A stretch of DNA of 64,000 nucleotides from Polyangiaceae bacterium (GTDB lineage Bacteria; Myxococcota_A; Polyangia; Polyangiales; Polyangiaceae): contig JAHBVX010000007.1 in assembly GCA_019637295.1 (NCBI GenBank), forward strand, positions 124,001 through 188,000. Direction: 5' to 3'. The position numbers were made by a program, and so were the translations under genes. Below the pieces are notes generated by a model that searched no databases, was not told the DNA's origin, and saw nothing but the letters and a program-made list of their open reading frames with translations. The first letter of the stretch is position 1. Every line of letters begins with the position of its first letter. This document shows, one piece after another, positions 2,696 to 40,884 of this stretch.

Positions 2696-2698
2696 TCA

Positions 2699-2785
2699 AG
2701 GCTCGACTTGAGCAGTCTTGGCACGATCCGATCACGATCGGCAAAGGAGGCCAGAACCCACAGAAAATACCGGCGAAGCCGGCGC
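2699..2785 (-). repeat. Copy 1 of a dispersed MITE-like repeat (one end)
   Basis: Read on the minus strand, bases 2761-2699 match bases 39739-39801 on the plus strand at 59 of 63 positions. A weaker match continues to 2785/39715. The outer edge, AGGCTCGACTTGAGC at 2699-2713, is the terminal inverted repeat of the second copy with one mismatch. The opposite end is unclear; a partial match (AGTCGAGC) occurs at 2926-2933, which would give an element of about 235 bp. Both copies are intergenic and in opposite orientations. Short ORFs running through it are shadows. Confidence 0.7.
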
Positions 2786-2925
2786 CGGCTGCGTTCTTGC
2801 TCGGAAGAGCCGCGGGACTTTTGGACTTTTGCCAGGTCACCTCTGCCGAAGGACGCTTCGGAATCCCGCACGATTCCCGATTCGCTGCGACTTCGGCAGA
2901 CGAGATCCGGCCCTGTAGCGAACAG

Positions 2926-2961
2926 AGTCGAGCGCGACGGGCCGTCCCGCCGCGCTCGACT
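2926..2961 (-). terminator. GC-rich hairpin just after the four-helix-bundle remnant
   Basis: Perfect 11-bp arms AGTCGAGCGCG (2926-2936) and CGCGCTCGACT (2951-2961) enclose a 14-nt loop. On the minus strand the hairpin starts one base after the stop codon at 2962-2964. There is no clear T-run, so termination is inferred from position and stem strength only. The arm partly resembles the terminal repeat of the neighbouring MITE-like element, so it could instead mark that element's far end. Confidence 0.35.
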
Positions 2962-37773: not shown

Positions 37774-39585
37774 ATGGCCGGCAAGCCGAAAGCAGATCTC
37801 GACCAGACGGCGCGCATCGAGCTCGAGCCCGCGGATCCCTTCGAGCTGATTCGATGGCTGGCTCGCAGCCAGCCGGACCCCCGCAAGGCGACCGCCGAGC
37901 TGATCCAGAACTCGCTGGACGCCGGCGCTCAGCGCGTCGACGTCGTCCGGGCCCGGGTCGGCGCGGCGATCTCGCTGTCCATCCGGGACGACGGGGAGGG
38001 GGTGTTGCCCCATCTGCAGCGGCGGGCAGCGCTCGAACACCTGGCCAAGCACGTCGGGCACTCCCACAAGATGAGCCTGGATCCGGGCGAGCGAGCCCGG
38101 CGGGTGGTCGCCGGCCAGTACGGTGTGGGCCTGCTCGGCTTCTGGGCCATTGGCCACCGTATGGAGATCCACTCTCGGGTAGGTGGCGGCAAGGTCGCGG
38201 TGCTTCGCTTGACCGAGGACTCTCCGCACGCGGAGGTGGGCACCTACACCGCACCCAAGGGCGCGCCCGGGACCTACACGGAGGTTTCCGTGAGCGAAGT
38301 GCACGAGTCGGCGGCGCGCGCTCTTTCGGGTCGCCGCTTGGCGGACTACCTGGCGGTGGAGCTGCGGGGACAGCTGCTCCGCAGCGGGGTCGCGCTCACG
38401 ATCAACGACCGACTGGCCCGCGGCGCTGCTCGGGAGCTGCGCGTGGTGCCGCATCGCTACAGCGGCGAGAAGCTGGAGCTGCCCGCGGAGGTCCCGGTAA
38501 GAGGCTTTCGCGCAGCTCACGTCGAGCTGTATCTGGCTCGCGGCTTCGATGGCGCCAGCATCGAGCTGTCGTGCGCGGGCACGCGGGTGGCCGACGATCT
38601 GGCGCGCCTCGATGCGCTCGGTCTCACCGAGTCGCCGTGGACTGGCGCCGAGCTGACCGGAGTCATCGACTTCCCGGACTTCAGCATCCCCCCCGGCACG
38701 CGCCGCGGCGTACTGCCCAACGCCGCCGCGCTCGCGTTCCTGGAGGCGATGGGAGGGCTGGCGCCCCGCATCCTCGCTGAGCTCGAGCGGCTCGACCTGC
38801 TACAGCGCGCCGAGCTCGACCGCCAGGTCGTGCACGAGCTCCGGCGCGCGCTGCGCGGCTTCGACGAGCGCGTCCGCGATCTGACGCTCCCGCCGATCGC
38901 GGCCCGGGACGGGGAGCCCGCTACCGGACCCGTCGGCGCTGGAGAGCCCGTGGCGGGAGGGGGTCGCCGACCCCCCGCCACGAACGGCGACCCGCCGGAC
39001 GTCGGAGCGGGACCCCTGGCAGCAGTCACGGTGCTGCCGGGATTCGTTCGGATCACGCCGGCGACTCAGAAGCTCGTGCGGGCCGTTGCGAAGGACGCCG
39101 AGGGCCGAGCGCTGCAGGGCGTCGCCTTCGAGTGGCGGATGCCGGACGCCGAGGACGCCGGGCTGGCCATCGAGCCCCAGGGGCATCGCCTGCTGCTCAC
39201 CGCCGGTGACGACGCTCCCCTTGGCCGCCAGCTGCCGCTGATGGTCGTCGCGACGCTCGACGGCGACACCGCCGCGGACATCGCGGCCGTGGCGGTGGTG
39301 GAGGCCAAACACGAAGTGTACGCGCGGCTCGGCATTCCCGAGCCCCTGCTGGTGAGCGCCCCGGGCGCCCCCTGGCGCAGTCGCCGGCGGGGCTTCAGCT
39401 GGGAGATCAACGAGGCCCACCCCGACTATCAGCGCGTCAAGGACCAGTCCCGGCGGCGTTTGCGCTATTTGATCGCGCTGCTGGCCAAGGAGATCGTCAT
39501 CAGCAGCACCCGCCGGGACGACGCGGCGGACCTGCTCGAGGCGATGGTCCAGGTGCTGGCCCACGCCGAGGGCAACCTGCGCTAG
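37774..39585 (+). CDS. GHKL-superfamily ATPase of unknown function
   Basis: 603 residues. The N-terminal ATP fold shows all GHKL boxes: AELIQNSLDAGA (N46), SIRDDGEGV (D73, G74) and GQYGVGLLGFWAIG (residues 114-127), the arrangement of MutL, Hsp90 and MORC-type ATPases. A long middle region follows, then a linker rich in Gly/Pro (about 385-410). Residues about 412-512 look like a beta-sandwich (Big/Ig-like) segment, and the end is a basic helical domain containing WEINEAHPDYQRVKDQSRR. It lacks the MutL endonuclease or Hsp90 C-terminus. No neighbour reveals its job. It stands alone after the kinase gene and before the repeat. Confidence 0.75.
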   Translation: MAGKPKADLDQTARIELEPADPFELIRWLARSQPDPRKATAELIQNSLDAGAQRVDVVRARVGAAISLSIRDDGEGVLPHLQRRAALEHLAKHVGHSHKMSLDPGERARRVVAGQYGVGLLGFWAIGHRMEIHSRVGGGKVAVLRLTEDSPHAEVGTYTAPKGAPGTYTEVSVSEVHESAARALSGRRLADYLAVELRGQLLRSGVALTINDRLARGAARELRVVPHRYSGEKLELPAEVPVRGFRAAHVELYLARGFDGASIELSCAGTRVADDLARLDALGLTESPWTGAELTGVIDFPDFSIPPGTRRGVLPNAAALAFLEAMGGLAPRILAELERLDLLQRAELDRQVVHELRRALRGFDERVRDLTLPPIAARDGEPATGPVGAGEPVAGGGRRPPATNGDPPDVGAGPLAAVTVLPGFVRITPATQKLVRAVAKDAEGRALQGVAFEWRMPDAEDAGLAIEPQGHRLLLTAGDDAPLGRQLPLMVVATLDGDTAADIAAVAVVEAKHEVYARLGIPEPLLVSAPGAPWRSRRRGFSWEINEAHPDYQRVKDQSRRRLRYLIALLAKEIVISSTRRDDAADLLEAMVQVLAHAEGNLR

Positions 39586-39598
39586 CTGAGTGCGTCCT

Positions 39599-39801
39599 AG
39601 GCTCGACTTGGGCGGTTTCTGCCCGCGCGTTCCGGGACTTCATGCTCTTCCGACGGGTCAGGTGGCCGCGGCGACCCGTCGAAACCCGCGACCCTCCATC
39701 CGGCAACCGAGCATGCGCCGGCCCCGCCGGTTCTCTTCGTGGGTTTTGGCCTCCTTTGCCGATCGTGATCTGATCGTGCCAAGCCTGCCCAAGTCGAGCC
39801 T
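39599..39801 (+). mobile_element. MITE-like element, 203 bp, with 15-bp perfect terminal inverted repeats
   Basis: Left end AGGCTCGACTTGGGC (39599-39613) and right end GCCCAAGTCGAGCCT (39787-39801) are exact inverted copies. The right 63 bp (39739-39801) match the minus strand of 2761-2699 at 59 positions. No transposase ORF is present, so it is nonautonomous, or a structured repeat that spreads by another route. No clear target duplication was found at the edges (CCT on the left, CGG on the right). It occupies most of the 351-bp gap between the ATPase and prs genes; the rest (39802-39936) holds no gene I can support, only the probable prs promoter region. Confidence 0.65.
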
Positions 39802-39936
39802 CGGGGCCAACCGTGCCCTCGGATCCGCTCGCATTGACAGATCTGACCCTCGCTGCTACCTGTCGCCCCCCTTCAAGGTCTGGGGCGGCCGCGGGCCCAG
39901 TGCGGGCTCCCCCGCTCGGCCTCCACGAGGCGTCCG

Positions 39937-40884
39937 GTGGCCGTCAAACGATTCTGTCTGTTCACGGGAAACGCGAATCCCGAGCTCGCCGAGGAGATCG
40001 GCCAGGTGCTGGGCACCCCGCTGAGCGAAGCACGCGTCTCGCGGTTCAGCGACGGCGAGACGTTCTGCGAGGTGAGGGAGAACGTCCGCGGCCTGGACAC
40101 CTACGTGATTCAGCCCATGTGCTCGCCGGTCAACGACAACATCATGGAGTTGCTCATCTTGTGTGACGCGCTCCGGCGGGCGTCCGCGGCCAGCATCACC
40201 GGGGTCATCCCGTACTACGGCTACGCTCGGCAGGACCGCAAGGTGGCGCCTCGCACCCCCATCACCTCGAAGCTGGTGGCGGATCTGCTGGTGACCGCGG
40301 GCATCGAGCGCGTCGTGTGCGTCGATCTGCACGCCGGCCAGATCCAAGGCTTCTTCAACATCCCCTTCGACCACCTGTACGCGCTGCCGGTCTTCTTGGA
40401 GGACTACCTGAAGACCCGCTTCGACGACAGCGCGGTAGTGGTGTCCCCGGACGCCGGCGGTGTCGAGCGGGCGCGTGCCTACTCCAAGCGTCTCGGCGCT
40501 TCGCTGGCCATCATCGACAAGCGGCGGGAGCGAGCCAACGTCAGCGAGGTCATGCACCTGATCGGGGACGTCGAAGGTCGAGACTGCATCATCATCGACG
40601 ACATGATCGACACCGCCGGCACGCTGTGCAACGCAGCCAGCGCCGTGATGAACTATGGCGCCAAGAGCGTCGTGGCCTGCGCGACCCACGGCGTCCTGAG
40701 CGGACCAGCCGTGGAGCGCATCGCAGCGTCGGCCCTCAAGGAGGTCGTGGTCACCAACTCCATCCCCCCGTCGGACGAGGCCAAGGCTTGCGAGAAGATC
40801 CGCGTGCTCAGCATCGCTCGACTACTGGGGGAAGCCATTCGCCGCATCCACAACAGTGACAGCGTCAGCTCCCTGTTCGTGTGA
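39937..40884 (+). CDS. prs: Ribose-phosphate pyrophosphokinase
   Basis: 315 residues. Makes PRPP from ribose-5-phosphate and ATP for nucleotide, His and Trp synthesis. Conserved [10 protein letters not shown] start, FSDGE, the flexible catalytic loop [26 protein letters not shown] and the PRPP-binding loop [12 protein letters not shown] start at 39937. It leads the block prs-rplY-pth-rpsF-rpsR-rplI-dnaB, an order shared with many bacteria. PRPP made here feeds the purD/purA and hisZ pathways encoded further downstream. Confidence 0.97.

Follow-up and report, generated by a model that had tools for sequence, protein, structure and literature searches.

REPINs are short palindromic mobile repeats, and a MITE can outlive its partner transposase. 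The element described here resembles REPINs in being a short palindromic repeat, but its target duplications argue for a different mechanism. Among bacterial MITEs, MITEPye1 has been linked by its authors to IS1182; in the available part of that account, it is short and gene-free, with inverted ends, direct repeats, a mostly intergenic location and a stem-loop fold, in all of which it is like the present element, whereas it has another parent family, and an interior core of about 90 bp conserved across genera is a feature of the present family (PMC11578231). The IS481-type transposon TnRErm46 has the same target hexamer, and the TAG of its duplication is the stop codon of the neighboring gene, but, as described in the available part of the report, its ends start with TGT and it carries its own transposase (PMC6794481). 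IS701 insertion sequences of the clade NF049999 (transpos_IS701_3) share with the present element ends of the form CTCGA(C/G)TT, the CTAG outside the ends (genomes G036, G007, and G072) and, in G072, a scrap of transposase within a 373-bp relative. They differ in size and content (about 1.7 kb with a transposase in G036 versus 197 bp without one) and in the duplication, which is 5 or 7 bp in plasmid relatives, as judged by eye, and 4 bp for one IS701 element tabulated in the literature (PMC6352166), versus 6 bp here.

The element lies in a stretch of 64,000 nucleotides (hereafter, the window) from a Polyangiaceae bacterium, corresponding to G000:C23:124001-188000 of its 7.65-Mb assembly. From sequence comparisons, we consider it quite probable that the element belongs to a MITE family moved in trans by an IS701-family transposase of the NCBIfam NF049999 clade. 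Within the published accounts available, it is a new family of a known kind: the NCTAGN target is known for IS481, and MITEs are known for other insertion sequence families. The literature searched yielded no MITE linked to IS701.

The window element and the distribution of its family

The sequence-only reading of the window proposed a MITE-like element with perfect 15-bp inverted ends. The inversion is indeed perfect, positions 39599-39613 being the reverse complement of 39787-39801, but the outer AGG/CCT is part of a 6-bp target duplication, so that the true ends measure 12 bp and the element proper has the boundaries given in Table 1. Inverted ends alone are weak evidence, because a 15-bp inverted pair at 100-230 bp spacing, found once in the window, also occurs once in one of ten order-3 Markov sequences, each of window length. 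The upstream neighbor of the element is a gene for a HATPase-domain protein, which ends at 39585, and the downstream neighbor is a ribose-phosphate pyrophosphokinase gene starting at 39937. With 197 bp, the element is too short for a transposase gene and contains none; the open reading frame at 39590-40024 crosses it and continues outside.

Table 1 Features of the window element, of the second copy and of the 3.7-kb element of genome G020 (window positions, unless a locus is named)
Feature	Position	Strand	Basis or remark
Element, 197 bp	39602..39798	+	BLAST copies; ends fixed by target duplications
Left target duplication, CCTAGG	39596..39601	+	Partner is 39799-39804; backed by hexamer statistics
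Right target duplication, CCTCGG	39799..39804	+	Differs by one letter from the left copy
Left terminal inverted repeat, CTCGACTTGGGC	39602..39613	+	Perfect, 12 bp
Right terminal inverted repeat	39787..39798	-	Perfect, 12 bp, inverse of CTCGACTTGGGC
Conserved right-end core, model R1	39713..39803	+	106.7 bits; last 5 positions inside the duplication
Second copy, subfamily with a different left arm	2702..2932	-	Far end judged by eye
Conserved core of the second copy	2697..2787	-	99.3 bits; extends into the hexamer
Hexamer adjacent to the second copy's conserved end, minus-strand reading CCTTGA	2696..2701	-	
Copies of the 3.7-kb element of G020	L223 2918-6310; L224 1381-5063; L225 2870-6552		

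A second copy had been claimed at 2.7 kb. The match of the right 63 bp to the minus strand of 2761-2699 is as reported (59 of 63 positions), and the right ~90 bp is common to the two loci, but the rest is unlike, and the second copy belongs to a different subfamily. We looked for a partner of its CCTTGA hexamer and found none. Its far end, at about 2932, abuts another palindromic repeat (window 2927-2961), relatives of which at G000:C12:353025-353059 and C1:198842-198880 suggest another small repeat family.

The assumption that the family is spread through the genome proved correct, and neither of the outcomes that would have spoken against it, namely only two copies genome-wide or ends differing in every copy, was observed: the ends recur, and the 203-bp query has 22 dispersed blastn matches in its own genome (E ≤ 0.001). 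Four of these, the window copy included, are nearly full length (100, 88, 86, and 83% identity), 17 are confined to portions of the query's right half and one spans positions 1-78. Three other places hold almost all of the 203 bp at 83-88% identity, which rules out chance as the source of the repeat; the same values, being no higher, argue against a recent burst. Left arms vary by subfamily, with a window type (and its counterparts in genus g15), a 2.7-kb type and an L023/L136 type, and elements of about 300 bp in G074 carry two oppositely oriented cores, one at each end. Internal deletions are frequent; L192, the shortest element seen, retains 25 bp between two TCTAGT hexamers. The two ends found 3.2 kb apart in G020 are those of separate short elements. 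At L012 (G000:C4:4386-4627), a solo right end abuts a full-length copy at the same CTAG, as in a nested or tandem insertion.

In the own genome, a covariance model of the core (R1, built from 29 aligned cores) recovers 19 matches at E ≤ 0.1, of which 15 also pass E ≤ 0.001; among the 317 genomes of the class, it matches 14. Nine of these have strong matches: G000, G020-G022 of genus g15, and G071 and G073-G076 of genus g40, with at most 13 candidates scored per genome, so that copy numbers are to be read as "at least." On inspection, the weak matches in G006, G082, G303, and G167 appear to be chance hits, and the one in G077 is doubtful. In G000, G020, G021, G022, and G074, 30 of the 35 distinct cores read run into a mobile end; in G071, G073, G075, and G076, all 12 distinct cores are without mobile ends, and a pattern search in these four genomes found the end pattern not to be in excess. 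The notion that all nine genomes contain the MITE is thus wrong: the MITE proper is present in five genomes of three genera, and the core is more widespread. Neither the MITE nor the core is present in G014, the second genome of the own genus. There was no blastn match to the element in the plasmid and phage collections, and no exact match to the two patterns searched in IMG/VR.

Target duplications, element-free loci and gene ends

For the analysis of the flanks, facing pairs of the inner ends CTCGA(C/G)TTG.GC (two mismatches), 40-450 bp apart and beside CTAG-like words, were searched in the loci collected for the family, a set that was not drawn from it at random. The 35 rows obtained correspond to 32 elements of five genomes after removal of three repeat listings (L063, L151, and L224), the row with known boundaries being kept in each case. 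Facing terminal inverted ends are present in all 32. The letter before CTAG is equal on both sides in 25 of the 32 elements (permutation mean 8.9) and the letter after it in 22 (8.2); both outer letters agree in 19 (2.6), leaving 13 elements in which they do not both agree, and the whole hexamer is identical in 11 (1.3). Not one of 20,000 permutations of the right hexamers reached any of these four counts. The agreement between the two sides indicates that NCTAGN is duplicated and that the element begins with CTCGA. One pair has TCTCGG on either side, showing that the target was copied and that the agreement is not that of a conserved end. A duplication of 4 bp was considered and dropped because the letters outside CTAG agree as well.

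One unfilled site was identified. G021 (L113) has a single CTAG where G022 (L106) has about 175 bp more; the flanks are 86% identical, and the insert lies between CTAC and CTAG. L106 is an old copy, in which the letters beside CTAG disagree by now. A comparison of 1.0 Mb of G021, in 55 stretches, with 24 element loci of G020 and G022 revealed five further loci with orthologous flanks (at least 76% identity over at least 600 bp), on both sides for L322, L109, L104, and L099 and on one side for L192. G021 is without the element at all five. None of these five loci presents a clean unfilled CTAG in G021, and at the L099 locus some 665 bp of other DNA stand in the element's place. Collectively, the copies, the 6-bp duplications, the unfilled CTAG, the five element-free orthologous loci and the transposase-bearing relatives discussed below support the proposal that this is a nonautonomous mobile family. 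It has the features of a MITE: short length, terminal inverted repeats, target duplication and dispersed copies, with no transposase gene.

Gene-like frames were called with a home-made procedure based on open frames and third-position G+C. The TAG of the flanking hexamer is the stop codon of such a frame in 11 of the 32 elements (12 of 64 sides), and 7 of the remaining 21 elements lie no more than 20 bp from such a stop; as a reference, 4 of the window's 33 CTAG words are gene-like stops, at slightly stricter thresholds. In G074 (L090 1499-1800), the element is located between two converging gene-like frames, each of which stops at the TAG of its own target copy. The same effect, with the TAG of the target duplication doubling as a stop codon, has been described for the IS481-type transposon (PMC6794481). 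CTAG is scarce in the window, with 33 occurrences versus 55 expected from trinucleotides. The choice of target word and the elimination of insertions within genes would together account for where the elements lie, so that an active preference for gene ends is not needed.

The conserved core and its fold

The right ~90 bp of the element consist of the hairpin CCGGC-NNC-GCCGG followed by GTGGGTCTTGGC and GATCGTGATCTGATCGTGCCAAGACTGCCC, with AAGTCGAG at the end. This core is kept across genera at about 71-84% identity (blastn matches of at least 50 bp), is joined to several different left arms and was not seen in the insertion sequence ends read. Cores free of mobile ends are found in G071, G073, G075, and G076 at L091, L092, L093, L094, L100, L102, L103, L108, L154, L155, and L163. 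In G071 and G076 (L093 and L094), the core is preceded by a strong hairpin such as GAATTCGGTCCGCTAGGCGGACCGAATTC. Because it occurs without mobile ends in four further genomes, the core is possibly a separate module; candidate identities are a binding region, a separate repeat taken up by the MITE and a structured transcript.

A further reading, which we regard as rather unlikely, treats the core of about 90 bp as a module under selection in its own right, acting at gene ends, which an IS701-type transposase captured and spread onto stops. The core would then end transcripts, influence RNA stability or bind a protein. Its presence in three genera, with and without mobile ends and with several left arms, is consistent with such a module.

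We give still less credence to the possibility that the core represents a non-coding RNA with a defined structure or a single-stranded DNA element, regulatory or REPIN-like, which leads an existence of its own and to which the mobile ends are secondary. The interior is conserved across genera, a single core goes with several left arms, cores without mobile ends occur in four g40 genomes, and the position is behind genes. The full element folds better than shuffled sequences (z -4.6 on the plus strand and -3.6 on the minus strand), and RNAalifold predicts six pairs in the core, one of them, in the hairpin, with a compensatory change. However, much of the fold excess of the element stems from its paired ends, the six pairs are mostly invariant, and Rfam gave no match at E ≤ 1 in 12 loci; a conserved fold of the core is thinly supported by these predictions. 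The duplications, the unfilled site and the transposase-bearing relatives point to DNA transposition of the window element. The structured repeat that the sequence-only reading had offered as the other option may still apply to the interior core, which occurs without mobile ends in four genomes.

Candidate transposases and the proposed mechanism

The domain PF13546 (DDE_5, IS701-type) was not matched in any of the ten genomes searched, five MITE genomes included and G072 outside the search, but it is matched by the transposases of G036 and G007. These were reached through the end CTAGNCTCGASTTGNGCR, which, with one mismatch allowed, was matched in 39 of the 108 genomes of the family, in many by chance, judging by the reversed-pattern control; an IS701 sequence is present in three of 30 loci among the matches listed. 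On contig C288 of G036, an IS701 transposase of 444 aa (NF049999 E 3.4e-100, PF13546 E 2.6e-24) lies between two facing ends at a distance of 1.7 kb, whose outer hexamers disagree (CCTAGA and GCTAGG). G007 has the end CTCGACTTGGGCACTTTT, bordered on its outer side by ACTAGT, ahead of an IS701 gene; this gene (NF049999 E 1.6e-66) covers only profile positions 4-276 of 412 and looks damaged, and a second end was not recognised at this locus. In the g15 elements, the left end is CTCGACTTGCGCACTTT, which has 16 of 17 letters as in the G007 end. In G072 (genus g40), the 373-bp element (L287) lies between two ACTAGT hexamers and contains a scrap of the transposase, 91 residues from its tail, with 59% identity over 91 columns (NF049999 E 8.5e-5). 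In G028 (genus g19), L295 and L297 carry IS701-like ends such as CTCGAGTTGAGCACTT with no recognised partner end, suggesting insertion sequence remnants.

Like ends were also found in six IS701-clade loci on plasmids of unrelated bacteria (three in Microvirga, two of them identical, two in Streptomyces and one in Roseomonas), where 10 of the 12 ends begin with CTCGA(C/G)TTT, having their first eight letters in common with the MITE, and the other two differ by one letter. By eye, the repeats outside these elements are 5 bp long in Microvirga and 7 bp in Streptomyces, with none agreeing in Roseomonas; across L312-L317, they seem to range from 5 to 7 bp between hosts. The transposase with the same terminal repeats that had been suggested as a target of search is thus present beside like ends in G036 and G007, with a scrap in G072, but was not found in the MITE genomes. 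A partner transposase in the same genome is usual but not required. Given that the enzyme was not found there, the MITE copies are probably relics or await re-supply.

An IS481-family transposase was considered because the 6-bp NCTAGN duplication seen here is in print for IS481-type elements (PMC2516522, PMC3053399, PMC6794481). In the available parts of two of these sources, however, the ends start with TGT (PMC2516522, PMC6794481), whereas the present ones start with CTCGA. Moreover, the end scan of the loci of 18 rve (PF00665) matches in ten genomes gave scattered matches only, with no facing ends around a gene on reading, and the genes found beside matching ends are of the IS701 family, so that we regard IS481 as a very improbable source of the activity. 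The right end, hexamer and left end can also be read as the two inverted 12-bp arms and 6-bp center of a tyrosine recombinase site, but the unfilled target is without arms, and the hexamer varies between copies and agrees within a copy, as expected of a staggered-cut duplication, which makes such an element scarcely credible.

Other transposase families were rejected. IS630 (PF13358, DDE_3) was matched in one of ten genomes (G074), with no transposase bearing these ends. DDE_Tnp_1 (PF01609) was matched in eight of ten, and the loci of 30 of the 33 matches contain no 17-letter end (up to two mismatches). A looser scan (14-letter end, three mismatches) gave scattered matches and one facing pair that encloses its gene (L197), discarded for its weak ends and lack of CTAG. 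G020 contains a 3.7-kb element, which we take to be ISAs1-like, with a DDE_Tnp_1 transposase, a second gene resembling an HNH endonuclease, and ends in CGATCGAGACT. One of its copies lies within the CTAGGCTCGACC end of a MITE; since its own duplications (about 10 bp) differ, it merely landed there.

The matching ends in G036, G007, and G072 and the transposase relic in a related short element (L287) argue for an IS701-derived MITE. According to this preferred scenario, the transposase would recognise the ends CTCGA(C/G)TTG.GC and cut the target NCTAGN with a 6-bp stagger, and repair would leave the hexamer on both sides of the insertion. As CTAG is scarce and insertions inside genes would be lost, the survivors would gather between genes; where the target CTAG holds a TAG stop, the duplication would restore the stop, and the insertion would be harmless.

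For a mobile family in a bacterial group that has been little charted, these results provide exact ends, a target and a probable enzyme. Annotators could mark the element and distrust open reading frames that cross it, such as 39590-40024. More generally, a scarce and often stop-containing target word would let a transposon, here probably of the IS701 type rather than the IS481 type, settle at gene ends without harming the genes.
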